The notes beneath the pieces were generated by a model. The model had not been told where the DNA came from. It saw nothing but the letters and a program-made list of their open reading frames with translations, and ran no database searches. A DNA stretch of 43,882 nucleotides from Bacillota bacterium (lineage in GTDB: Bacteria; Bacillota; Sulfobacillia; Sulfobacillales; Sulfobacillaceae), in NCBI GenBank assembly GCA_021797675.1, contig JAJZZH010000168.1:1-43882 (forward strand), in the 5' to 3' direction. Positions 1,084 to 43,300 of the stretch are shown one piece after another. The position numbers were made by a program, and so were the translations under genes. Numbering within the stretch: the first letter of the stretch is position 1; each line of letters begins with the position of its first letter.

Positions 1084-1112
1084 TTGCACAATGCCGACTT
1101 ATAGAATACAAT
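1084..1112 (+). promoter_or_regulatory. Sigma-A type promoter of the M-box leader
   Basis: TTGCAC (1084-1089) and TACAAT (1107-1112) are separated by exactly 17 bp. Transcription would start near 1119-1121, immediately before the first conserved base-paired segment of the M-box. It is the best promoter in the window, and its fit to the riboswitch start supports it independently. Confidence 0.8.
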
Positions 1113-1120
1113 GAAACCAC

Positions 1121-1296
1121 CTAAGGTACATCCTCGTTAGGCGAGGCGACCATGTCAATACAGGCCACTGCTCTGACCCGTCCAAAGACGCTCAAGGGTA
1201 AAAAGGGGTTGCCGGATTAAGGCTTCCCCAAGGTGGCTGAATCTTGGAAGCGGAAGGTTCTTACGTGACATGGCGCTGAAGCTCCACCAGGAGGAT
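1121..1296 (+). promoter_or_regulatory. M-box (ykoK leader) Mg2+ riboswitch aptamer
   Basis: The conserved core segments appear in order: CGTTAGGCGAGGC (1135-1147), GTCCAAAGACGC (1180-1191), GCCGGATTAAGGC near 1210-1222, and GCTGAAGCTCC (1275-1285). The closing P1 helix is ATCCTC (1130-1135) paired with GAGGAT (1291-1296). M-box RNAs bind several Mg2+ ions and switch off Mg2+ transporter genes. Here the 3' strand of P1 overlaps AGGAGGA (1289-1295), which can instead pair with TCCTCCT (1317-1323) as an antiterminator. Low Mg2+ would therefore allow read-through into the NRAMP-related gene, and high Mg2+ would allow the terminator to form. Confidence 0.93.
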
Positions 1297-1315
1297 CGGG
1301 GTGAAGTATGACCGA

Positions 1316-1352
1316 GTCCTCCTATGACAATCAGGAGGACTTTTGGTTTTTT
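1316..1352 (+). terminator. Intrinsic terminator of the M-box expression platform
   Basis: GTCCTCC (1316-1322) pairs with GGAGGAC (1334-1340) around an 11-base loop and is followed by TTTTGGTTTTTT (1341-1352). The 5' arm is the same segment that the antiterminator strand 1289-1295 would capture. This gives the standard mutually exclusive fold for an OFF switch. Confidence 0.88.
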
Positions 1353-1359
1353 GAACTCA

Positions 1360-1453
1360 AAAGGGGGGAGCAGGAAATGGGATCCGATCCCGGAGGCCAT
1401 AAACGTCGTTTCCAGGATTGGTATGTGGTGTCGATGATTTCTGCTGCCCCTTT
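1360..1453 (+). other. Long-range stem in the leader after the terminator
   Basis: AAAGGGG..AGCAGGAAAT at 1360-1378 is largely complementary to ATTTCTGCTGCCCCTTT at 1437-1453. Read-through leader RNA would therefore carry a second extended stem between the M-box terminator and the start codon. No known RNA family is recognised in it. Confidence 0.5.
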
Positions 1454-1475
1454 GGACCGCATGCGCTAAGCCAGG

Positions 1476-1504
1476 CATCCTCCTCGGGGTAGCCGAGGAG
1501 GATG
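1476..1504 (+). promoter_or_regulatory. Perfect 12-bp hairpin sequestering the ribosome binding site
   Basis: CATCCTCCTCGG (1476-1487) and CCGAGGAGGATG (1493-1504) are perfect inverted repeats with a 5-base loop. The right arm contains the AGGAGG ribosome binding site of the gene starting at 1510. The left arm is also complementary to the AGGAGGAT strand of the M-box P1/antiterminator (1289-1296). This suggests a second, translational layer of control. Confidence 0.7.
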
Positions 1505-1509
1505 GCAAC

Positions 1510-2853
1510 ATGGCGGTAAAGACGCGCGCCGCAATGCTCAGCGAAGACGAACATTCCATACGCGCCCTGGACCAAGAGCGAGTCCAAGCATTGAGACAGG
1601 GTTCTACCAGCTGGAGAAAGCGGCTGGCTTTGCTGTTGACTTTGATTGGTCCAGGCATCTTAGTGATGATTGCCGATAACGACGCGGGCGGGGTTGTGAC
1701 TTACGCTCAGACCGGCGCCATGTATGGTATCGGATTTTTTGTTCCCGCACTTATCTTGGGCGGATTGATTGCCTTTTCGGTCCAGGAGATGACGGTGCGC
1801 TTAGGCGCGGTAACCCGCCGCGGCCACGCGGAAATGATTTGGGGACGTTATGGTCCGTTTTGGGGCTGGTTTTCTCTGGTTGATCTGGTGGCCGCCAACG
1901 TCTTGACCCTGATTACCGAATTCATCGGGATTACCGTCGGGATGTCCGTGTTTGGGGTGCCGCCGATCTTCAGCCTCGGCGGGGCTTTGACGCTCGACGC
2001 GGCGATCCTGCTCTTTCTTCGGTACTACGCTTGGGAGCGAGTTTCTCTGTGGATAGCGCTCGGTAACCTGGTGTTTGTTCCCTTGTGCCTGATGGCGCAT
2101 CCCCAGTGGGGCGCGGTAGCCGGGGCGCTGGGACACTGGACGATTCCCGGAGGGTTTCAGGCCGCCTTTCTGTTTGTGGTCTTGGCCAATTTCGGCACCA
2201 CGATCGCGCCTTGGATGTTATTTTTCCAGCAGTCTTCGGTGGTTGACAAGGGCTTGATGGTGGCTGACGTCCGGCAGGGCCAGTGGGATACGGCGATAGG
2301 TACCTTGGCCATGGTGGTGGTGGCAATCGCCATCGTCGTGATGACGGGGACTTTGCTGCATGGCCATGGAGGCGCCGGCCAGGACCGCATAGCCGGGATC
2401 ATTGGAACCATAGGGCGAAGGCTGGGGTCGACGGGCCAGGATCTCTTCGCTTTGGGCCTGGTGGAAGCAGGAACCATTGCCACCATTGCGTTGACTGCGA
2501 GCACTTCGTGGGCCATGGGCGAGGCGTTTCACTGGCCGAAGAGCATTAATCTGCCGGTGCGCCAGGCGTGGAAGTTTTATCTGCCTGGCATTCTAGGTGC
2601 CGCGATGGCTGCTGGCGTGGTGATGATTCCCCATGCTCCGCTCGGGTTTCTCAACCTGACGGTGCAGGTCGTGGCCTCGATCTTTATGCCGGCTGCGCTG
2701 CTGTTTCTCCTGCTCTTGTTGAATGATCGCGAGATCATGGGTCGATATGTGAATCGACCCTGGCAGAACGCGGTGGCCTTGGCCATTGTGGGACTCTTGG
2801 TGGTCTTAAACGGATTGTATGGAATTTCGGTGATGTTCCCCGGGGGATGGTGA
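1510..2853 (+). CDS. NRAMP-related transporter, probable Mg2+ importer (NRMT type)
   Basis: This 447-aa polytopic membrane protein has about eleven hydrophobic segments and the fold signatures of the NRAMP family. The first helix reads GPGILVMIADNDAGG (residues 47-61), so the canonical DPGN metal motif is DAGG here. The sixth helix reads GTTIAPWM (229-236), where the conserved methionine of MPHN is alanine (A233). NRAMP-related proteins with altered sites of this kind have been described as Mg2+ rather than Mn2+/Fe2+ transporters, and some are controlled by M-box RNAs. The M-box leader here is independent support for Mg2+. The start follows AGGAGG by 8 bp, inside a hairpin. A small membrane protein gene follows closely. 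Confidence 0.88.
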   Translation: MAVKTRAAMLSEDEHSIRALDQERVQALRQGSTSWRKRLALLLTLIGPGILVMIADNDAGGVVTYAQTGAMYGIGFFVPALILGGLIAFSVQEMTVRLGAVTRRGHAEMIWGRYGPFWGWFSLVDLVAANVLTLITEFIGITVGMSVFGVPPIFSLGGALTLDAAILLFLRYYAWERVSLWIALGNLVFVPLCLMAHPQWGAVAGALGHWTIPGGFQAAFLFVVLANFGTTIAPWMLFFQQSSVVDKGLMVADVRQGQWDTAIGTLAMVVVAIAIVVMTGTLLHGHGGAGQDRIAGIIGTIGRRLGSTGQDLFALGLVEAGTIATIALTASTSWAMGEAFHWPKSINLPVRQAWKFYLPGILGAAMAAGVVMIPHAPLGFLNLTVQVVASIFMPAALLFLLLLLNDREIMGRYVNRPWQNAVALAIVGLLVVLNGLYGISVMFPGGW

Positions 2854-2942: not shown

Positions 2943-3125
2943 ATGATGGAGGAGGAGAAAAATTCGGAGCGTTTGAAGGTCGTGCCGACTCTTGGCCAGG
3001 CTCCGGTCGAGCTGACTCGCGTCCTTCCGCGGGGGCTGGTGCGGTGGGCGTTTTGGGGGCTGCGCCTATATATCGCGGCGATGCTGGTCTTGGTGGGGAT
3101 TGGATTCAGCCGGGGGATGCACTGA
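2943..3125 (+). CDS. Small single-helix membrane protein
   Basis: This 60-aa protein begins at an ATG preceded by AAGGAGGG (2928-2935). An upstream in-frame codon would give 92 aa but lacks a ribosome site and overlaps the previous gene. The product has a charged N-terminus (MMEEEKNSERLK), a proline-containing linker, and one hydrophobic helix at about residues 36-55 (ending MLVLVGIGF) followed by a short tail. It lies 89 bp after the NRAMP-related gene with no terminator between, so it is probably co-transcribed under the M-box. No family is recognised. A regulatory or accessory subunit of the transporter is a reasonable but untested idea. Confidence 0.6.
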   Translation: MMEEEKNSERLKVVPTLGQAPVELTRVLPRGLVRWAFWGLRLYIAAMLVLVGIGFSRGMH

Positions 3126-3681: not shown

Positions 3682-4965
3682 ATGCTGAACGTTCAGTTGG
3701 CGTATGGTTCCGGTGTGGTCACGGCGTCAGTCCCGGACTCGACCACGATCCTTACGCCACGCTACGTGGCCACGCTGCCGGACGAAGCGGCGGCAATTTA
3801 CCAGGCTCTGGCGGCGCCGCGGGGAACCCGCCCGCTGGCAGACATGGTGCGAGGGCGGGGCTCCGTGGCGATTGTGACCCCGGACATTACGCGGCCGCTG
3901 CCCACGGCGCGCATCCTGAAAGTGTTGCTGCCGTATTTGGAAGCGGCCGGAGCCGGACCCGAGCGGGTGACGTTGATCAATGGGACTGGCTCGCACCGAG
4001 GAAACACGCCCGAAGAGCTCTCCGGGATGTACGGGCCCGAGGTGGTGCGGCGGTACCCCATTGTCAACCACGATGCCGAGCGAGCGGACAGCCTGACGCG
4101 CGTAGGAAGAACTCGAAACGGCGTCGATGCATGGTTAAACCGTGATTTTGTGCGAGCAGACGTGAAGATTGTATTGGGATTAATCGAACCGCATTTCTTT
4201 GCCGGATTCTCGGGCGGAGCCAAGGGCGTCTATCCAGCCTTGGCCGGCATGGACTCTATCCTGGCCTTTCATAACGCTCAACAGATCGATGATCCTCGCT
4301 CGACGTGGGGCGTTATCGACGGTAATCCGCATCAGAGCGAGTGTCAATCGGTTTGGAACCTGGTCCACCCAGATTTTCTCCTTAACTGCACCGTCAATCG
4401 TGACCACGGCCTGACGGGAATTTTCGCGGGAACGCTTGAGGAAGCCTTCCCCGCCGGTTGCGCCTACTGCAAAGAGGTCGCCATGACGCCGGTGGATCCT
4501 CCGGCGTTTGACGTGGTGCTGACATCCAATAGCGGGTATCCGCTTGACCAAAACCTCTACCAAACGGTGAAAGGCCTGTCGGCCGCAGCCCAAATCGTGC
4601 GGCCGGGCGGGACGATTCTTTGTGCTGCCGAATGCCGCGAAGGCTTTCCCGATCACGGCGAGTTTCATGAATTGATGGTAAACGCCGAGTCTCCTAAAGC
4701 CCTCCTTAAGCACATTTTCCAGCCGGGGTTTCAACGGCCGGATCAATGGGAGGCGCAGACCCTGGCCAAGATCTTGACGCGGGCGGAGGTGTGGTTATAT
4801 TCGACGATTCCTGCCCACGCAGTGAGTGAGGCGATGCTGAAACCGATAGCCTCGCTGGCTGAGGGGTTGACGGCCGTGCTCCACCGGTATCCCGGTGAGC
4901 CGCGTATTGCTGCGCTGCCGGAAGGCCCGATGACCATTCCGTATGTTGCTGAGCGAGTCAATTAG
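3682..4965 (+). CDS. larA: LarA-family nickel-dependent 2-hydroxyacid racemase
   Basis: This 427-aa protein has the length and motifs of lactate racemase LarA, which interconverts L- and D-lactate using a nickel-pincer cofactor. Visible motifs are D68-x-TRP (68-72), GTGSH with H105, EPH with H171, GGAKG with K181, and H197. They match the positions of the L. plantarum residues H108, H174, K184 and H200, with a constant offset of three. The start is the ATG at 3682 with GAGGAGG 7 bp upstream; an upstream in-frame codon has no such site. LarA homologues act on several 2-hydroxyacids, so lactate is not certain. Cofactor makers LarB, LarC and LarE are not in the window. The nearby sugar-acid genes, which could release lactate or lactaldehyde, make the placement sensible. 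Confidence 0.88.
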   Translation: MLNVQLAYGSGVVTASVPDSTTILTPRYVATLPDEAAAIYQALAAPRGTRPLADMVRGRGSVAIVTPDITRPLPTARILKVLLPYLEAAGAGPERVTLINGTGSHRGNTPEELSGMYGPEVVRRYPIVNHDAERADSLTRVGRTRNGVDAWLNRDFVRADVKIVLGLIEPHFFAGFSGGAKGVYPALAGMDSILAFHNAQQIDDPRSTWGVIDGNPHQSECQSVWNLVHPDFLLNCTVNRDHGLTGIFAGTLEEAFPAGCAYCKEVAMTPVDPPAFDVVLTSNSGYPLDQNLYQTVKGLSAAAQIVRPGGTILCAAECREGFPDHGEFHELMVNAESPKALLKHIFQPGFQRPDQWEAQTLAKILTRAEVWLYSTIPAHAVSEAMLKPIASLAEGLTAVLHRYPGEPRIAALPEGPMTIPYVAERVN

Positions 4966-17849: not shown

Positions 17850-18782
17850 ATGAAGGCCGTAGAAAAAGACATTCAAGACCGTATTCGCGCCCATGGGCTA
17901 AACCTGGACGGACGGCGCCTCCCCTATGGGTTTGGCGCCGCTTGGCTGAGGACACCCGATAAGGTGGCGGTGTTGGAGGCCGCGTATACTAAGGGGTTTC
18001 GCTACTTTGACACCTCGCGCGATTATGGAGAGAGTGAGCGGATCGTGGGAAGGTTCCTCAAGCAGGTGCCGAGAGGATCACTGTTTTTGGCCACCAAATC
18101 CCACATATTTGAGGCGGCGGTGATCGATTCGACGGATCCTGCGGTGTCGCAGCGTTCGGTTGCGCAGTGGATTTTAAAGAGTTTTGAGGAGAGTCTCGAG
18201 CGGCTGGGTACCGACTATGTGGATTTGTATCAGATTCACGATGTGGATTCGCTGGCCCATTTAGATCTCGCCCTTGAGGAACTGAAACGGCTTCAGGCGG
18301 AGGGGCAGATCCGGTGGATAGGGCTGGCGACGCGTGATCTCGGCCTGCTCGAGCAAGGGCTTGACCGCGGAGCGTTCGACACCATCCTAACCTATTCGGA
18401 TTTTACGCCGCTTCGGCAAACGGCGGCTTCGGTGCTGCGGCGGGCGGCGAAGACGTCTTGTGGGCGGATAAACGCGAGTCCCTTGGGCGGCTGGGGGCTC
18501 ATGCGCGGCGTCGACCCGCGAACCCTTCGCTTTCCTCGGGCGACGGGCGAAAAATTTGCCCGAGAAATGGAACTGGCCGCCAGTTTCTATGATCTGTGCC
18601 AGGCCATTGGGGCCTCACCGCTGACCTTTGCCCTGCAGTTTCCCATCATGAATTCCGATATCGACATCACGTTAACCGGTCCCGAAACCCTGGAGCAGTT
18701 GACGGGTACGCTCAACAACTTAACCCAGCCGATCGACCCGTTGCGCTGGCGGGCATGGGATCGATGGCGCAAGGCCTTGTAA
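17850..18782 (+). CDS. Aldo/keto reductase, possible L-fucose / D-threo-aldose 1-dehydrogenase (copy 1)
   Basis: This 310-aa TIM-barrel oxidoreductase carries the aldo/keto reductase tetrad: D54 and Y59 in YFDTSRDYGESE, K83 in FLATKS, and H130 in DLYQIHD. The DTSRDYGESE form is typical of the D-threo-aldose / L-fucose 1-dehydrogenase branch, which oxidises an aldose to the 1,5-lactone with NAD(P)+. GGGAG precedes the ATG. The next gene encodes a lactonase-type amidohydrolase, and a GH29 fucosidase lies in the same region. Both support sugar oxidation, but the exact substrate is inference. Confidence 0.88.
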   Translation: MKAVEKDIQDRIRAHGLNLDGRRLPYGFGAAWLRTPDKVAVLEAAYTKGFRYFDTSRDYGESERIVGRFLKQVPRGSLFLATKSHIFEAAVIDSTDPAVSQRSVAQWILKSFEESLERLGTDYVDLYQIHDVDSLAHLDLALEELKRLQAEGQIRWIGLATRDLGLLEQGLDRGAFDTILTYSDFTPLRQTAASVLRRAAKTSCGRINASPLGGWGLMRGVDPRTLRFPRATGEKFAREMELAASFYDLCQAIGASPLTFALQFPIMNSDIDITLTGPETLEQLTGTLNNLTQPIDPLRWRAWDRWRKAL

Positions 18783-19057
18783 GCGATTGCGTCCTGAGGA
18801 AGGGAACCAACGCCCTGTTCAGGGCCATGGCGTTCGACGCGTGGGAACCGGCGCTCCCGGCCAGGATGGCCACGGTCAGCAATGGCGCTTTGGTCGGCAT
18901 CGCAGCCGGGTCTCTGCCTTAAGCAAATATTCGGGGTGCTCGCTGGAAAGCGGGGACGCGTCGGCACCGTCGTTTCGACGTTGGCTGGGAAGGCATTGCG
19001 CTACCGGTCTTGGACGTATCGTGGCGTAGACGCGGGACGAAAAGGGGGAAACCCGCC

Positions 19058-19891
19058 ATGTATGTTGATACCCACATCCATTTCATCCAGCCCCCGGTAG
19101 CGAACGGGCAAGACGGCAGCGAGCCAGTGGCCGCGACGAAATCGCCTCGGCGTCTTTTTGCCGACGTGGCCGGGAGCTTGGCTGAGCACGGGGTAAGCGC
19201 CTGCGTCGCCGTGCAGGCCGCGCCGACTATTGAGGAGACGCGCTTTTTGCTCGGCTTGGCCGATGCGCATCCGACGATTGCCGCCGTGATCGGGTGGCTT
19301 AACGTGCGCTCGCCGGAATTTGCCGACGATCTCGCACACTTTGTGGGGGATCCGCGGCTTAAAGGCATTCGGGTGACGGTGCCGGAGCTCTGCGACGAGA
19401 CGGGCCAGCCCTGGGCTGGGGTGGAGCACCATCTCGATCGGCTCAGCAGCGCCGGGCTGTCCCTCGAGTTGTTAGTGTGGCCGGGATTTTTCGAACGGGT
19501 CTTGCCGCTGCTCCGACGGCACGCAGAGCTGCCCATGGTGGTGGGCCATCTGGCGTTTGACGGCCAGTCGCATGCCCGGTGGCACCGGGGGATGACGGAA
19601 TTTGCCGCCCTGCCGAAGGCGCGCACCAAGATTTCGGGCCTGATCACGCAGGCTGAGGGCTTAAGCCGTGAGCGGATTCGCGCGTACGTCGCGGATACCA
19701 TCGACCTCTTTGGCGTTGAGCGGGTCAGTTTCGGCAGCGACTGGCCGGTGGCGCTTCGGGGCGGCACTTACGCGGACGTGGTGGAATTGTTTGAGGACAC
19801 GCTGCCTGCCCGGTTGGGGGAGGACGACCGCGAGCGCGTGCGGGCGAACAACGCCGCAACGTTTTACGGCCTCACCGTGAATCCGGCTTAG
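19058..19891 (+). CDS. Amidohydrolase-2 family sugar lactonase (L-fucono-1,5-lactonase-like)
   Basis: This 277-aa TIM-barrel metal hydrolase starts MYVDTHIHF with the metal-binding H6 and H8. VVGHLAFD holds a further histidine, and FGSDWPV carries the catalytic aspartate of the amidohydrolase-2 family (COG3618). Members include L-fucono-1,5-lactonase and L-rhamnono-lactonase, which open sugar lactones to aldonates. The ATG at 19058 follows AAAGGGGG by about 10 bp and places HxH at the very N-terminus, as in the family. It follows the aldo/keto reductase whose lactone product would be its substrate. Confidence 0.85.
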   Translation: MYVDTHIHFIQPPVANGQDGSEPVAATKSPRRLFADVAGSLAEHGVSACVAVQAAPTIEETRFLLGLADAHPTIAAVIGWLNVRSPEFADDLAHFVGDPRLKGIRVTVPELCDETGQPWAGVEHHLDRLSSAGLSLELLVWPGFFERVLPLLRRHAELPMVVGHLAFDGQSHARWHRGMTEFAALPKARTKISGLITQAEGLSRERIRAYVADTIDLFGVERVSFGSDWPVALRGGTYADVVELFEDTLPARLGEDDRERVRANNAATFYGLTVNPA

Positions 19892-20167: not shown

Positions 20168-22165
20168 ATGCAAGTGATCGCAGCCAATGTGCCATTGATT
20201 GAGCCGCCCGAGTGGGCGATTTTAGAGCGGCAACTGATCGCGTTGATGAATCAGGCGGTGGATCCGGTTGTAGCTCGGTATATCAAAGAAGACGGTTCCG
20301 TGATGTGGCCGCCGGCTGACGATCATACCGGAGTGGACGCCTTGGATGACGCCTATGAAAGTTTTTTCAGCTGGCCGCTGTTTTACCTTTTGGGCGGCGA
20401 CGACAAATTCCTGCAGTTGGCTCAGCGCGAATTTGACGCGGTCACCCGGCAATATGCCCGCTATGCCACCGGATTCGGCCATCCGATGGTGGTCAAAGAA
20501 TATGAACAAGGGTACGACTGGTTTCATCAGGGCGAGGGCTATCTCTTCTTTTACCTATTAAATCTGGCGGCACCGACCAACCAAAGAAACCAGGAGCGGT
20601 CCCGGCGCTTCGCGGGATTTTTCGTAAACGAAGATTCCGACGCGTTGAATTATGACCCCGAACACCAGTTAATGAAATGCTCGCTCATTGGCAGCATGGG
20701 ACCGGGGCATCAGCTGTTTGCCGGTGCGGACTTCGGATATCGGCCCTATATGGAATATTACGGACTCGCTTTTCAGGATATCGAAGGCATTGACAGCCTC
20801 GAAGATTTACACGATCCGGCCAAAGCCGCACGATTTCTAGCGGTTGTGCAACAACGCTGGGCGTACGGCGATGCGGTGATGAACCTCGCCGTCACCAGCA
20901 TGATCGCCAATGCCTATCTGCATACAGCGGAGGAAAAATATCGGCAATTTGTCCAAGACTATGTCGGGGCGTGGATTGAGCGCGCCCAGCAAAACGGCGG
21001 CATTGTGCCGGATAATGTGGGCCTTACCGGGCAAATCGGGGAGTATTTCAATGGCAAATGGTACGGGAGCCGCTATGGCTGGACGTTTCCTCACGGGTGG
21101 TCCAGTGTGGGCGCCGGGGTGGTGGTGGCCAGCGAAAATGCCATGTTGTTGTGCCAAGACGCCGGTTGGCTCGAATTTGCCCGCTCCCAGATTGATATCT
21201 TGATGAGCCAAGGGATAATGCACGAAGGGACGTTGCACGTTCCGCACAAGTACGGTGACCGGGGGAATTACACATATACGCTCTGGATAGCCGATGTGCT
21301 GTTTGAGGATGGCACGGTCTCGCTAGGAGAGGATAATCTAGCTGAGGGCGAATCGTTGTCGAAGAACACGGTGTTATGGCAAGACGGATGGTTTGAATTT
21401 TACCCGATGGATCCCAAATTCATGACCCACGTGTGGTACCTGTCGATGGATGCGGGCGATAAGACGCGGTTAAAGCAACTGCGCAACCACCGCCGCAGGG
21501 ATTGGGAACACGTGATATTCGAGCCCCATTCGAAAAAAGACCTGGGCGGCAACGATCAGGCCTGGGTGGCCTTCCTCGATGGCGAGTTCCCCGACTATCC
21601 CGAGCAGATTTTGCAGCATAATCTGGCCCAAGTCTACCACCGTCTGGATTTCATGGGTCAGGACCGCCAAGACCCGCGTACTTACGGCGACGCCTACTTG
21701 CAGCTTCGCAACCCGATCAGTCTGGAAGGCCTCATTCAACTGACGATGGGCGGTCCTCGGCCGATCTATAACGGGGGGCTGTTGATGGTCCGGGTGCGGT
21801 ATTACGATGGCGATCGCCGTCGGCCGGGACTGCCGGAGGACGTCGCCGCCCTGGTCACCGCGGTCGAGGCAGATCGCACCGTGCTTGAGCTGGTGAACTT
21901 AAGCGCTGCCCAGGAGCGGAGCGTGATTGTCCAAGCAGGCGGGTTCGGCGAGCATCAATTTACCGAGGTGCACTATGCGGTGCGACAGAGCGGGGAAACC
22001 GTTTCGCCTCATTACCAAGGCCGGGTCGCCCCAAGGACGGTGGAGCACAGCCGGACGGTGAACGGCCAATGGTTCGAGGTGCGGTTGCAGCCAGCCTCGC
22101 AGATCACGCTGGATATCGGAACGAAGCGGTTTGTGCACGATCCGTCGTATGCCGAGCCGTGGTAG
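20168..22165 (+). CDS. Uncharacterised 665-aa protein, possible (alpha/alpha)-toroid carbohydrate enzyme
   Basis: This 665-aa protein has no signal peptide or membrane helix, so it should be cytoplasmic. The first 450 residues are helix-rich and full of aromatic and acidic residues (WPPADDHTGVDALDDAYESF, EYEQGYDWFHQGEG, SLIGSMGPGHQLFAGADFGY, FPHGWSSVGAGVV). This pattern is common in (alpha/alpha)6 glycoside hydrolases and lyases. The last 100 residues look like a beta-sandwich (VTAVEADRTVLELVNLSA). I do not recognise a named family. It lies between the lactonase and the second aldo/keto reductase, and the stop is 13 bp from the next start, so it belongs to the sugar operon. GAAGGGG precedes the ATG. 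A role in opening the imported oligosaccharide is a guess. Confidence 0.75.
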   Translation: MQVIAANVPLIEPPEWAILERQLIALMNQAVDPVVARYIKEDGSVMWPPADDHTGVDALDDAYESFFSWPLFYLLGGDDKFLQLAQREFDAVTRQYARYATGFGHPMVVKEYEQGYDWFHQGEGYLFFYLLNLAAPTNQRNQERSRRFAGFFVNEDSDALNYDPEHQLMKCSLIGSMGPGHQLFAGADFGYRPYMEYYGLAFQDIEGIDSLEDLHDPAKAARFLAVVQQRWAYGDAVMNLAVTSMIANAYLHTAEEKYRQFVQDYVGAWIERAQQNGGIVPDNVGLTGQIGEYFNGKWYGSRYGWTFPHGWSSVGAGVVVASENAMLLCQDAGWLEFARSQIDILMSQGIMHEGTLHVPHKYGDRGNYTYTLWIADVLFEDGTVSLGEDNLAEGESLSKNTVLWQDGWFEFYPMDPKFMTHVWYLSMDAGDKTRLKQLRNHRRRDWEHVIFEPHSKKDLGGNDQAWVAFLDGEFPDYPEQILQHNLAQVYHRLDFMGQDRQDPRTYGDAYLQLRNPISLEGLIQLTMGGPRPIYNGGLLMVRVRYYDGDRRRPGLPEDVAALVTAVEADRTVLELVNLSAAQERSVIVQAGGFGEHQFTEVHYAVRQSGETVSPHYQGRVAPRTVEHSRTVNGQWFEVRLQPASQITLDIGTKRFVHDPSYAEPW

Positions 22166-38488: not shown

Positions 38489-41400
38489 CTACGGACGGGG
38501 AACGACCGCGACCTTCAGGGTCTGGGTTTGCACTTGCTGGGGGTTTGCGGTAACCGTAACGATTACCGTGTACGAACCCGCACGGGTTGGAGTGCCCGTT
38601 ACCGTCCCATTTTGCGGGTTGAGCGACAAACCGGAGGGCAAGGCCGATCCCGAAGCAGGGGCCCACGACCATCGATACGTCCCGTCACCACCAATGGCAA
38701 ACAAATTGGCAAAATAGGGGGTGCCCTGGATGGCTGGGGGCACCACGGGTGTCACGATGTGCAAGGGCAGGGTGTTGGATGGTTGCAACGTCACGTTACT
38801 GAACCGAAGCAGGGCAGTGCCGCCCAAACCATCGGTCACCGCGACCTGACCGTTGTAAATTCCGGGAACCATCGGCGAGCTTCCCGTGCTGGCCACGAGT
38901 GTCGTGTGGTGAGATCCGGTGGCGAAGGTCGTGAACTTGACCGGATTGGCGGGACTTTGTACCACGGACCAGACGTCGTTCGACGCCGGATCACCTCCCA
39001 CCGCCACCAGATGCATGGTGATGGGCATGTTCGGCGTCAAAATGGCGGAGCTTACACGATTCGTCGGCGTGCTGGACACGGCCCCGCGCAGCGTGGCAGC
39101 CCGGGAATTCAGGCTTCCCGCCGTGGGCATACTGGTCAAAGACCACGAGAGAGTTCCCGAAATGTCCGGAACTATACGTAAACGCGGATAAAGCACAAAC
39201 GGCTTGGCGTCGTCTTGAGTTCCAGCAGCCAAAACGGCGTGCGCCCCCAATTGATCGGTGACCACCAAAGCCACGGTCTCCTGGCAAGGGTTGGCTCCCA
39301 ACCCATCGCATCCTGCCGCGCCGCTCGGGATGCCGGATATATGGCCGGTTTGAGGATTGACCGTGAGGCCGGACGGGAGCGGCGCCATGGGCAACACCCT
39401 CCAAACGTATGGCCCCACCCCGCCGCTGACGACCGGGCTGAAGGAATAGGGGACTCCGATCTCTGCAGGCGGGAACACGCCAGCACAAGCTTCAGCCGTA
39501 TATCCGTATAGCGTGACGGTTTTGCATCCGGGCGGCCTGAGAACTCCTTGGGTGAACGTCAACCGGCGAACCACATGCACCGTGACTCGAGTGTGCACCG
39601 TCTGACCCTCGCTATCGGTTGCCGTGAGGGTCAGGGACGACCATCGTGCCGTGGTGGGGGTGCCCCGTATCGACCCACTTGGGGTGAGGGACAGGCCGCG
39701 CGGGAGGGTTCCCCGCGTAATCGACCAGGCATAGGGCAGAATGCCGCCCGTCGCCGTCGCTTGGATATTCACCGGCGCCCCCTCTTCCGCGGATACCAGG
39801 GAAGGTCCGGTAATCCGCATGGCGGTCGCGACCATCAGGGTCAGGAAGCGCGTCGCGGTCTTCCCATGGGCATCCGTAACGGCCACGGGGGCACACCAGG
39901 AATGGCCGGCCGTTCTGGCTCCCGGCCTCCCTGACAAGACACCCTCGGGGCTCAGATTCAGCCACGCAGGAACGTTGCAACCGGAAACTGCGGTCCAATG
40001 ATAATGATAAGGGGGACTCCCGCCCCCGGCGACCAAGACTTGGTGGTACGTGGTGCCGGGATCCGCCAAGGGCAGGTGTTGCGTCACGATGGCCACGGCC
40101 ACGGGGAGCGTCAACGAGGCTGCTGGACTGGTTTCGCCCCAGCGATCGGTAGCCGCCACGGTGAAGGTGTGGGTCACAGCAGATGCCGTGGGCGTACCCG
40201 AAATGTTTCCGGTGGAGGGATTGAGCGAGATTCCCGCCGGCAATTTCCCGGCCACCACCGCCCAACGGTACGGGGCAGAGCCGTCGTGGGCCGACAAGGG
40301 TGCCTGGTATCCTTGACCGATGGTCGCGGAAGGCAGGGAGGTGGTCGTGACTCTGGGCGGAGGCGACACGACGATGGTCAAGACGGCCTGGCTTTGCGCC
40401 GGAACGGGAACACCAGCGCGATGAGAACGAGCCGCCACGGCAAGCGTGAACGTGTACCGGCGGGGCCTGGACCGATAGGCCCCCTGCGGAGCCGTGGGCG
40501 TTCCGGAAATCTGGCGTGTCTTGGGGTTAAAGTGCAACCCAGAGGGCAATGCTCCGGAGATCAGCGACACCGTATAGGGTCCCCCGTTCCCGCCGCCCGC
40601 TTGGACGTGATAGTGGTAAGGCACTCCCCAGTCCGCTCCGGGAGCCGGGCCGGACACCAAAGCCACCGGCACGCCGACTGCAAACCTGTGGGACCAGGTC
40701 CCGCCTGCGCCATCGGTCACGCGGACCGTGATGAACGCGCTGGTGGCCGTCGCAGTGGGGGTACCGGTAATGGCAATCTGACTTGCCCACGACTGCCCCG
40801 TGACCGCCACCGAATGCGTAGAAAGCCCAGTCGGCAACCTTCCGGTTACAGTCCAGTGAAAAGGGGGAACCCCCGTTTTTGCCGTTACCCCCAAGAGGCT
40901 CGAATAGGCCCGCCCGATGGGTGCCAGCGCAGGCACTGAGGTGTGGACGCAGAGGGCTGGATAGACCGTGAGGCTCAAGGCATGAGGTGGGAAGGACTCG
41001 GCGCCGACAGGCTGCAACGCGTCCGAAACCGCGAAAGTAGGCACATATTGCCAGTTCTCCCCGGCACTGGCGCATCCGGCGTGACCCGTAGGCACTCCAC
41101 GAATTACGCCCGTCACCGGATTAAGATGCAATCCTGGCGGCAGACTGGTGCTTTGTAAGGCCCAGGCATAGGGTTTAACCCCGTATTTAGCTTGTAAGAC
41201 GCCGTGATAGGGCGCACCGATTTCGGCGGGAGGGAGACTGGAGGTTACCCATGTCAGCGGGCGATGCACCACCAGGGTATAGTCGGGTGCGCTGATTAGT
41301 CCCGGCGATGTCCCCGTCACGCCGTTTCCATCCTTTGCCCAAACCGCGAAACAATATCTGCCGGGCTGCGCAGGGGTTCCTTCGAGCACACCGTTGGGCG

Positions 41401-43219
41401 AGAACGTGATGCCGCCCGGGAGCGTTCCGAAGCAAGCTCCCCAATGCCATTGGTAGGGAGCGACGCCACCGGATAAGTCAAATGTCACCGGATGATAATA
41501 TTGCCCTTGCTCAGCGGGGGGCAAGGTCGTGGTGTTGCCAGCAAGCGGTCCGGCACTGGTACCGGTCAGGGTTGGACGGGGCTTCACAATGATCTCCTGG
41601 TCATCCAGGTATCCTTGGCCTCCGACGCTGTCGGTGACCTGCAACGCATACCGGTAGGTACCGGCGTGGGTTGGGGTGCCCATAACCCAGGCCACGCCGC
41701 CGGGCCCAGGTTGCAATCGCATGCCAGGTGGAACCCGTCCCTGGGCGACGACCCACTGCGTGTACGGCGGCGTGCCGCCGATCGCGGTCACCGCCTGAAT
41801 ATAGGGAACGCCTACCTCCGCATAAGCCTGGGAAATCGGGTTCACCACATAAGTGGGGGCGGGATTCACCGAAGCCGTTACCGCAGCATCAAAGCGTTGA
41901 TTTTGGGTGTCGATAGCCTGCAACGTGAAATGATAGGGGCCCACGGTCGATGGGGTCCCCGTCAACAAAAATCCGGTGCCGGACGAATCCAGACTGAGTG
42001 ATAGACCTGGGGGGAGCTTTCCCTGGGTGACCTGGAGCCCGGTAATGGTCGTGTATCCGCTCCAGGGAAAGGAAGTATCGGACCGGCAAGCCTGGCCGAC
42101 GTCGCACGGTTTGGCGCTGACCGGCGCGGGAGACTGGTAAGATTCGGTGACTTGGACCGAAACCAGGGCATTCAGCGCATGCACCTCCGTGCCCGCTCCC
42201 GAATCGACCGCGTAAATTTTCGGATCGAATTCGATCAAAAGACTGTTACCCCCATCCAACGTGCCCGACCAGGTGATGGTTTCCGTATTGTGACTGGGCC
42301 ATTGCGACACGATGCCTTGGATGGAGCTGGCATTTCCCACTTGATCCATCAAGGTGGTAAAGGCACGGGCAGCCAAGGGATCGGCTTCCGTGGCATCCAC
42401 CACGGGAATCGACACCCCCAAACTGTTAAGGCACGAAGTGAGGGTTTGCCTCTTTTGCGTCGGCAGATTGGCCAACCCGACCGAGGAGTTGAGATAGGTC
42501 GGGGCACAACTGACCCCGACCCCACTCAGTCCACCAGCCATGTCTTCCAGGGAAATGGTCGCGCTCACCGACACGTGGGAAGCGACCCCCGGGGGAGCTT
42601 GGCTGGAATACAGTGTGCCCAGCCAGTCGTTGGCTTCCGCCGTGGCCACGCCGAAAGCCGCCGTCCCCAGCGATAATGCTCCCTCGGCGGGGTTGATTCC
42701 CCCGACTCCCGCCGAGGCTACTCCGGAGCAGACTGTCACTCCATACGAGGAGACACAAGGGACGTCAACATGGGTCGATAAAGGGCCCGCGATGTTGAAA
42801 GGATTGGCAAAGGCGCCATACGTGGTGATCACGTGGGGATCTGTCCCCACCTGATAAATACGGGATCGCAGCGGACGGATGTGCAACCCGGGGCGCGTCA
42901 TCTTCCTCACGTTTAGTGGATCAAAATGGCGTTGGGGAACGATTTTGGCGGTGAAATGATCTTCAGCGACCGCGAGCCTCCTCAACACGCGATCGCGTTG
43001 AGGAGCAGTTAAATGACGCCAAGCGAATCGGTTGCTGACCGCCAAGTGCGGGCCTATGATATGGAGTGACGGGCGAAGATAGTCTGCCCGAGACGCCACG
43101 GATGACACGCTAGGTGGCCATTCGAAGGCCAAAATGCCCGCCGTGATCGCTATCGTGAGAAGTACCCATGCCGTCCCAAGCTTTTTCATGGCCCGCAGAT
43201 AATCCCATGCCCGTTTCAT
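38489..43219 (-). CDS. Giant membrane-anchored or secreted protein with tandem Ig-like (He_PIG) repeats
   Basis: This protein of about 1576 aa has one N-terminal hydrophobic segment (KLGTAWVLLTIAITAGILAF), a signal peptide or anchor. An unrecognised beta-rich domain follows to about residue 390, with a few cysteines (VPCVSSYGVTVC, SCAPTYLN, TSCLNSLG). Then come about 11-12 putative Ig repeats of the form GGxxPYxWxV...LPxGLxLxPxTGxIxGTPT..G.Y.F.V.VTD. Such repeats build extended cell-surface stalks that often bind sugars or other cells. The ATG at 43219 is chosen; GGAGGAGG lies 12 bp upstream, while a TTG at 43228 would be only 3 bp from it. A promoter is seen at 43301-43329. Confidence 0.85.
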   Translation of the reverse strand: MKRAWDYLRAMKKLGTAWVLLTIAITAGILAFEWPPSVSSVASRADYLRPSLHIIGPHLAVSNRFAWRHLTAPQRDRVLRRLAVAEDHFTAKIVPQRHFDPLNVRKMTRPGLHIRPLRSRIYQVGTDPHVITTYGAFANPFNIAGPLSTHVDVPCVSSYGVTVCSGVASAGVGGINPAEGALSLGTAAFGVATAEANDWLGTLYSSQAPPGVASHVSVSATISLEDMAGGLSGVGVSCAPTYLNSSVGLANLPTQKRQTLTSCLNSLGVSIPVVDATEADPLAARAFTTLMDQVGNASSIQGIVSQWPSHNTETITWSGTLDGGNSLLIEFDPKIYAVDSGAGTEVHALNALVSVQVTESYQSPAPVSAKPCDVGQACRSDTSFPWSGYTTITGLQVTQGKLPPGLSLSLDSSGTGFLLTGTPSTVGPYHFTLQAIDTQNQRFDAAVTASVNPAPTYVVNPISQAYAEVGVPYIQAVTAIGGTPPYTQWVVAQGRVPPGMRLQPGPGGVAWVMGTPTHAGTYRYALQVTDSVGGQGYLDDQEIIVKPRPTLTGTSAGPLAGNTTTLPPAEQGQYYHPVTFDLSGGVAPYQWHWGACFGTLPGGITFSPNGVLEGTPAQPGRYCFAVWAKDGNGVTGTSPGLISAPDYTLVVHRPLTWVTSSLPPAEIGAPYHGVLQAKYGVKPYAWALQSTSLPPGLHLNPVTGVIRGVPTGHAGCASAGENWQYVPTFAVSDALQPVGAESFPPHALSLTVYPALCVHTSVPALAPIGRAYSSLLGVTAKTGVPPFHWTVTGRLPTGLSTHSVAVTGQSWASQIAITGTPTATATSAFITVRVTDGAGGTWSHRFAVGVPVALVSGPAPGADWGVPYHYHVQAGGGNGGPYTVSLISGALPSGLHFNPKTRQISGTPTAPQGAYRSRPRRYTFTLAVAARSHRAGVPVPAQSQAVLTIVVSPPPRVTTTSLPSATIGQGYQAPLSAHDGSAPYRWAVVAGKLPAGISLNPSTGNISGTPTASAVTHTFTVAATDRWGETSPAASLTLPVAVAIVTQHLPLADPGTTYHQVLVAGGGSPPYHYHWTAVSGCNVPAWLNLSPEGVLSGRPGARTAGHSWCAPVAVTDAHGKTATRFLTLMVATAMRITGPSLVSAEEGAPVNIQATATGGILPYAWSITRGTLPRGLSLTPSGSIRGTPTTARWSSLTLTATDSEGQTVHTRVTVHVVRRLTFTQGVLRPPGCKTVTLYGYTAEACAGVFPPAEIGVPYSFSPVVSGGVGPYVWRVLPMAPLPSGLTVNPQTGHISGIPSGAAGCDGLGANPCQETVALVVTDQLGAHAVLAAGTQDDAKPFVLYPRLRIVPDISGTLSWSLTSMPTAGSLNSRAATLRGAVSSTPTNRVSSAILTPNMPITMHLVAVGGDPASNDVWSVVQSPANPVKFTTFATGSHHTTLVASTGSSPMVPGIYNGQVAVTDGLGGTALLRFSNVTLQPSNTLPLHIVTPVVPPAIQGTPYFANLFAIGGDGTYRWSWAPASGSALPSGLSLNPQNGTVTGTPTRAGSYTVIVTVTANPQQVQTQTLKVAVVPRP

Positions 43220-43300
43220 ACTCTGCAACGGCCTCCTCCGTCACGCTCTGTAAAGTCCGCCATGTCCGACAATTCCGTCTAGTACATCTATTAAAATAAC

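Follow-up and report, generated by a model that had tools for sequence, protein, structure and literature searches.

A leader peptide with an acidic-proline start may form a second Mg2+-control layer between an M-box riboswitch and an NRMT-type transporter gene

The M-box riboswitch is a textbook case, assumed to work by transcription termination alone, and the locus described here raises the question of whether that is the whole of its control. It lies in a 43,882-nucleotide (nt) stretch of DNA (the window: JAJZZH010000168.1 of assembly GCA_021797675.1, positions 1 to 43,882, forward strand), which is contig 151 of the 4.06-Mb genome of an acid-loving bacterium of the Bacillota, with Sulfobacillus and Bacillota metagenome-assembled genomes from acid mine drainage as its nearest named relatives. 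Here an M-box and a terminator are followed by a spacer of ~150 nt and then by the gene for an NRAMP-related transporter of the NRMT type. A preliminary description, made from the sequence alone, took the M-box to be the entire control region; the M-box is present, but this account was incomplete, having overlooked a leader open reading frame (ORF) with a strong Shine-Dalgarno sequence (SD) and a hairpin over the SD of the transporter gene, all of which the spacer holds. We propose that Mg2+ is sensed in two layers upstream of this probable importer, M-box termination being followed by a release of translation that depends on the leader peptide, and, from comparison of related sequences, give this reading a probability of about 0.7.

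The leader ORF ends (stop codon 1467-1469) 40 nt 5′ of the transporter gene. A homologous ORF occupies the same place in 30 relatives of the Sulfobacillaceae type, in which Asp4 is found in 30/30, Pro5 in 29/30, Gly6 in 28/30 and Gly7 in 24/30, and the stop lies ~23-56 nt 5′ of the transporter start in nearly all. Across codons 4-7 the first and second bases are nearly invariant, whereas the third is free. Single-base differences over codons 2-9, counted in pairs of related sequences and hence not independent, were synonymous 803 times vs 321 expected in the frame of the ORF, compared with 155 vs 337 in the +1 frame and 371 vs 302 in the +2 frame. Judged by these patterns, the leader ORF is very probably translated. 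Conservation ends at about codon 10 and is lost beyond it even among close relatives, with lengths ranging from 24 to 48 amino acids (aa), and this therefore favours a cis-acting N-terminal motif over a functional microprotein. The mark of MgtL-type leaders, an acidic/proline motif early in an ORF that precedes a predicted Mg2+ transporter gene, is present in the window as MGSDPGG. An Rfam search of the spacer (1290-1560) with lax filters gave no match to a known family up to E = 1.

Whether such leaders are a local peculiarity was addressed by a survey of 69 M-box loci across Bacillota, mostly one per genome, in which the short ORF with the strongest SD before the first long ORF was chosen blind to its peptide; common ancestry within families remains the main limitation of the resulting counts. 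A strongly led short ORF was found in 47 of the 69 loci, and in 42 of the 51 that offer 150 nt or more of space. Asp or Glu stands at residue 2 in 38 of 46 distinct leaders (83%), compared with 7% of 294 control ORFs (Fisher test, 2e-27), while residues 2-8 hold an acid-proline pair in 61% of the 46 (8% of control ORFs) and at least two acidic residues in 76% (9% of control ORFs). The N-termini are MDxDP-like, as in MDADPDDL, MESDDDYL, MDPDPGSS and METDPGRS, with Asp and Pro written in differing codons; the SDs are very strong, and the leader stops -1 to 45 nt from the main gene in 27/47 loci. When the same procedure was applied to leaders of S-adenosylmethionine (SAM) and thiamine pyrophosphate (TPP) riboswitches, an ORF was recovered in 3/30 and 2/28 loci respectively, none with Asp or Glu at residue 2. 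Together, these data indicate that a leader peptide accompanying the M-box across much of the Bacillota may constitute a second, overlooked layer of Mg2+ control.

A separate feature of these leaders is codon bias. Over codons 3-10 in the M-box loci across the phylum (L148-L217), Ser is written AGU in 25/40 cases vs 21% in main genes (p 4e-7), and Arg is written CGA in 13/20 vs 5% (p 3e-10), which may reflect slow codons or an RNA-level motif. A UAG outside the reading frame, seemingly conserved at or close to the leader motif, was considered as a sign of frameshifting; it has no start codon or consistent frame, and was recorded as codon bias.

The means by which a leader could act on the downstream gene is suggested by the folding of the spacer, in which four regions can be distinguished. 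Region 1 comprises the SD and start codon of the leader, region 2 lies inside the ORF, and regions 3 and 4 are the arms of the hairpin that sequesters the SD of the transporter gene. In relatives, region 2 is complementary both to region 1 and to region 3 (here the 5′ hairpin arm and loop). Pairing energies in the window are -25.4 kcal/mol for 1:2, -15.2 for 2:3 and about -25 for 3:4. When the strands of each pairing were swapped between species, pairing weakened from -19.4 to -14.9 kcal/mol for 2:3 (24 species), from -26.0 to -21.8 for 1:2, and from -17.2 to -12.7 for the hairpin arms 3:4 (22 species); 0/5000 permutations were as low in any of the three, in tests that ignore relatedness. All 8 inner pairs of the hairpin have changed on both sides among relatives.

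The M-box itself had been described as complete, with a competing antiterminator and terminator, and the comparisons bear this out. The Rfam covariance model RF00380, the check proposed for it, matches over its full length (1-169/169) at 121.1 bits, well above the gathering score of 44 (E 9.8e-27), and this is the single M-box in the whole genome. Across the family and order, ~30 genomes keep an M-box 5′ of the orthologous transporter gene, with conserved synteny. The two alternative folds (Table 1) make up an expression platform, P1 and the antiterminator competing for the common strand 1287-1299; the terminator stem (1315-1341, then TTTGGTTTTTT) was identified by folding and is absent from the list of a separate pattern scan. 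The proposed promoter fared less well: TTGCAC-17-TACAAT is plausible by eye, but promoter-type patterns occur only weakly above chance (2 found vs 0.9 expected).

The identity of the transporter rests on several comparisons. Its 447-aa product matches Pfam Nramp at 200 bits, and falls far under the cut-offs of the NCBIfam Mn models (106 of 430 bits and 42 of 272.5). The suggestion that an automatic label of manganese transporter would be wrong is probably right about the protein, although the libraries would give only a generic Nramp label. The altered metal site reported earlier is real: D58-A59-G60-G61 in transmembrane helix 1 (TM1) and G-T230-T-I-A233-P-W in TM6, with A233 at the position of the TM6 Met, and both DAGG and T230/A233 are invariant in 16 orthologues. 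The protein therefore carries the NRMT signature, defined as DxxG in TM1 and TxxA/T in TM6 by Ramanadane 2022 (PMC8806188), as D58..G61 and T230..A233. Among solved structures the best match is EleNRMT (7QIA, E 9.5e-52), compared with E 5e-11 for the best MntH. In the phylogeny, which had been proposed as a check, ten MntH proteins split off with support of 100/100, leaving the window orthologues, EleNRMT and several NRMT-like paralogues on the other side; the rows for EleNRMT and ScaDMT in this tree are aligned parts rather than full chains, and both sit on long branches. The two lines earlier said to point to Mg2+ import, the conserved M-box on one hand and the signature, EleNRMT similarity and tree on the other, both hold at this level, and the transporter very probably moves Mg2+.

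The same genome encodes NRMT-like paralogues on contigs 15 and 85 with differing sites (E-N-D-A-P-S with T-I-T, and D-T-D-A-G-S), and neither has an M-box or a strongly led short ORF. The contig 15 gene (18481-19797, L218) and its relatives form a conserved paralogue without an M-box, in which TM1 reads E-N-D-A-P-S and TM6 G-A-T-I-T-P, a site unlike those of both MntH and NRMT.

Table 1. Positions and supporting basis of the elements of the control region and transporter gene in the window
Feature	Positions	Strand	Basis
Putative sigma-A promoter TTGCAC-17-TACAAT	1084..1112	+	sequence; -35 at 1084-1089, -10 at 1107-1112
M-box (ykoK) Mg2+ riboswitch aptamer	1126..1300	+	RF00380 covariance model
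Antiterminator: P1 3′ strand CCAGGAGGATCGG (1287-1299) pairs with CCGAGTCCTCCT (1312-1323)	1287..1323	+	fold -16.6 kcal/mol
Intrinsic terminator AGTCCTCCT..AGGAGGACT, T-rich tract	1315..1352	+	fold -13.9 kcal/mol; counterparts in relatives
Strong SD of leader ORF (with start codon, region 1)	1363..1370	+	sequence
Leader ORF, 30 aa, MGSDPGGHKRRFQDWYVVSMISAAPLDRMR (MGSDPGGHKRR..)	1377..1469	+	translation; homologous leaders in 30 relatives
Leader codons 4-7, Asp-Pro-Gly-Gly	1386..1397	+	codon-level conservation in 30 leaders
Region 2, within leader ORF; alternative partners region 1 (strong) and region 3 (weaker in this species)	1436..1455	+	folds; covariation in relatives
Hairpin 3:4 (CATCCTCCTCGG-GGTAG-CCGAGGAGGATG) sequestering transporter SD (1497-1505)	1476..1504	+	fold about -25 kcal/mol
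NRMT-type NRAMP-related predicted Mg2+ transporter, 447 aa, site DAGG / TTIA	1510..2853	+	profile, structure-relative and tree comparisons

These elements allow the following mechanism to be modelled. With ample Mg2+, the M-box would fold, P1 would retain its 3′ strand, the terminator would form and transcription would end at ~1350; when Mg2+ is scarce, the P1 3′ strand would be taken up by the antiterminator and RNA polymerase would read on. This first layer is established behaviour of the M-box family, which the anatomy of the locus suggests applies here. The read-through RNA would then carry the strongly initiated 30-codon leader, followed by hairpin 3:4 hiding the ribosome site of the transporter. 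A ribosome pausing or dropping off near Asp-Pro would leave region 1 covered or open and region 2 free to pair with region 3, which would open hairpin 3:4 and allow translation of the transporter, whereas a leader read to its end, or left unread, would keep 3:4 closed. By analogy with the acid/proline motifs of MgtL and MgtQ, such pausing or dropping off would presumably be favoured by low Mg2+. We infer translation of the leader and its effect on the transporter from the conserved ORF, its acidic/proline N-terminus, the hairpin and the covarying alternatives, and control of the transporter by leader translation appears likely. Destabilisation of the ribosome in a Mg2+-dependent manner is a tentative candidate for the trigger, suggested by analogy.

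Several points weigh against this model. Among the first 13 residues of the window leader one is acidic, whereas the motifs with demonstrated ribosome-destabilising activity in E. coli, EPDP and DPEE, are more acidic (PMC11282234). In the window itself, regions 2 and 3 pair no better than shuffled sequences do (z -1.13, 32/200), and the 2:3 step therefore rests on the relatives; this pairing is also not seen in L062 and L065, close relatives without an M-box. The swap permutations of all three pairings take no account of shared descent, some hairpin pairing is to be expected because the 3′ arm is itself an SD, and in the survey the structure between leader and gene is only moderately stronger than in shuffles (mean z -1.9).

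The strongest rival to two-layer control, though on balance unlikely, is plain translational coupling, in which the leader is translated constitutively, its terminating ribosome melts the SD hairpin, and the M-box alone senses Mg2+. The short distances from leader stop to main gene, in the relatives and the survey loci alike, and the very strong leader SDs are what coupling would predict; it leaves unexplained that peptide-level conservation is confined to the N-terminal Asp-Pro motif, that leaders of unrelated transporter genes share acidic N-termini, and that the 1:2 and 2:3 alternatives covary. A similarly doubtful reading has the leader respond to some other signal (proline charging, polyamines, pH or general translation stress), as an arrest peptide or attenuator added to the M-box. 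Such a role would suit the nearly invariant Pro5 and the AGU- and CGA-rich early codons, if these are slow, and has a precedent in the Salmonella mgtM and mgtP leaders, which sense ATP and charged tRNA-Pro as described in PMC8092293. A single Pro codon would nevertheless make a weak sensor of tRNA charging, the most conserved residue is the acidic one, and such leaders go with Mg2+ riboswitches and Mg2+ transporters, not with SAM or TPP riboswitches.

The remaining alternatives are considerably less probable. RNA-level constraints do exist in the leader, in that its codons are biased and the conserved pairing regions overlap both ends of the ORF, and these might suggest that the ORF is incidental, with conservation of RNA sequence only and the M-box as sole regulator; the codon phasing of that conservation, and the recurrence of acidic N-termini in dozens of families with differing codons, make this very improbable. 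Small regulators of Mg2+ transporters exist, and the leader could in principle be one, acting in trans as a small functional protein, for example on the transporter. The upstream ORFs (uORFs) of Mycobacterium M-boxes may encode such proteins, according to PMC12810186, but the loss of conservation after about codon 10 and the variable lengths leave this the most improbable of the alternatives. A different objection, that the transporter moves Mn2+ or Fe2+ and not Mg2+, draws on an Acidobacterium NrmT without an M-box that behaved as a Mn2+ transporter and rescued Mn2+ transport (Shin 2014, PMC4072509), and on the finding, reported in PMC8806188, that NRMT-type site changes alone do not confer Mg2+ transport on EcoDMT. 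Much of the argument for Mg2+ thus comes from the M-box, because an NrmT lacking one can be a Mn2+ transporter; the conservation of the M-box on this orthologue only, with the NRMT signature, the similarity to EleNRMT and the separation from MntH, renders the objection very unlikely to be correct.

Further insight into two-layer control comes from relatives in which leader and M-box part company. Four genomes (G004, G006, G010 and G014) have no M-box in the family search and retain the leader, and in loci of this type a TTGACA/TACAAT-like promoter lies close 5′ of the leader where the sequence was inspected. In uncultured acidophile lineages a leader beginning MRSEPDSS precedes the NRMT orthologue, and Acidithiobacillus has LDSDPS; no Rfam-level M-box was found in the four loci tested from this set (L104, L108, L115 and L119), the last three being the MRSEPDSS loci tested. 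Alicyclobacillus orthologues have M-box cores, recognised by sequence, and leaders starting MDSPSSS, MDSSPS and MESGPS. In the same class, L040 combines an M-box and the leader MDPGDSS with an mgtA-type ATPase gene, and two further M-boxes are followed by leaders MNPGDPAESP and VNGDPEPAPS. As far as these loci allow judgement, the leader is separable from the M-box.

Certain of these loci are of interest in their own right. L062, L063, L065 and L028 keep leader and transporter, with a promoter-like sequence close upstream and no detectable M-box, and amount to a natural deletion experiment. The MRSEPDSS leader is nearly invariant in L108, L115-L120, L123, L129 and L133. The M-boxes of L145 (leader VNGDPEPAPST) and L032 precede genes for large membrane-permease-like proteins, not known as Mg2+ transporters.

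Parts of this arrangement have been described before. An M-box is known to control the NRAMP-related Mg2+ transporter NrmT (Ca_c0685) of Clostridium acetobutylicum, where, as in the window, an M-box and intrinsic terminator lie 5′ of the gene, and M-box NrmTs are found mostly in Clostridia and Deltaproteobacteria (Shin 2014, PMC4072509). When that paper was searched for mentions of leader peptides or small ORFs, only the MgtE-domain gene came up; the window gene has no adjoining partner of this kind, which is common, though not universal, for NRMT. EleNRMT of Eggerthella lenta (PMC8806188) shares DAGG in TM1 and TTIA in TM6 and is the best structural relative, but is remote in sequence. For the second layer a close likeness is Salmonella mgtQ-mgtB (PMC8092293), which has a short ORF with early acidic codons and stems 1:2 and 3:4 competing with 2:3, and in which the transporter's ribosome site is freed when leader translation falters, as proposed for the window. 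That ORF is 8 aa long and lies between genes without an M-box, whereas the window leader follows an M-box and starts with another motif. E. coli MgtL (EPDP), described in PMC11282234, likewise controls a Mg2+ transporter through an early acidic/proline leader and intrinsic ribosome destabilisation; it acts on Rho-dependent termination, in contrast to the SD-sequestering hairpin of the window, where the motif has one acidic residue.

A translated small ORF 3′ of an M-box has been reported for Mycobacterium pe20 (PMC12810186) and M. abscessus mgtE (PMC4974804), and in the literature searched, M-box uORFs were found in mycobacteria only. There the M-box controls the conserved small ORF through translation and Rho, and the available parts of the two papers describe no acidic-proline leader. 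No acidic leader after an M-box was found in the literature searched, which excluded closed-access papers, so priority is unproven; the pairing of M-box and NRMT is already known, and the acidic leader peptide stacked on M-boxes is apparently the new part.

A wider proposal, which we regard as evenly balanced, is that Bacillota M-boxes with room normally precede a nascent-peptide Mg2+ sensor, a strongly initiated leader of the form M-[D/E]-x-[D/G]-P aborted by ribosomes at low Mg2+, as a second control of mgtE, corA, mgtA or nrmT, of which the window locus would be one instance and in which the leader module can stand alone without an M-box. Should a translated acidic peptide prove to be part of most Bacillota M-box leaders, whole-leader reporters will have measured two controls together, and the MgtL idea, that the ribosome senses Mg2+ through the nascent chain, would be a general strategy far beyond enterics. 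The leader could also serve as a sequence marker for Mg2+ transporters without an M-box, such as the acidophile NRMT genes, and so help to tell which members of the NRAMP superfamily carry Mg2+ and which Mn2+.

Elsewhere in the window, a Pfam/NCBIfam scan of its proteins placed a histidine phosphatase and a lactate racemase (LarA) homologue as neighbours of the transporter gene. The latter, downstream at 3685-4965 (+), scores 435 of 460 bits, slightly under the NCBIfam equivalog cut-off. A second small ORF 3′ of the transporter (2943-3122, 60 codons) had no Pfam match and was dropped as a candidate. A 665-aa ORF at 20168-22165 (+) likewise has no Pfam match, and a 1579-aa protein with ~10 He_PIG/Ig-like repeats is encoded at 38489-43228 (-).

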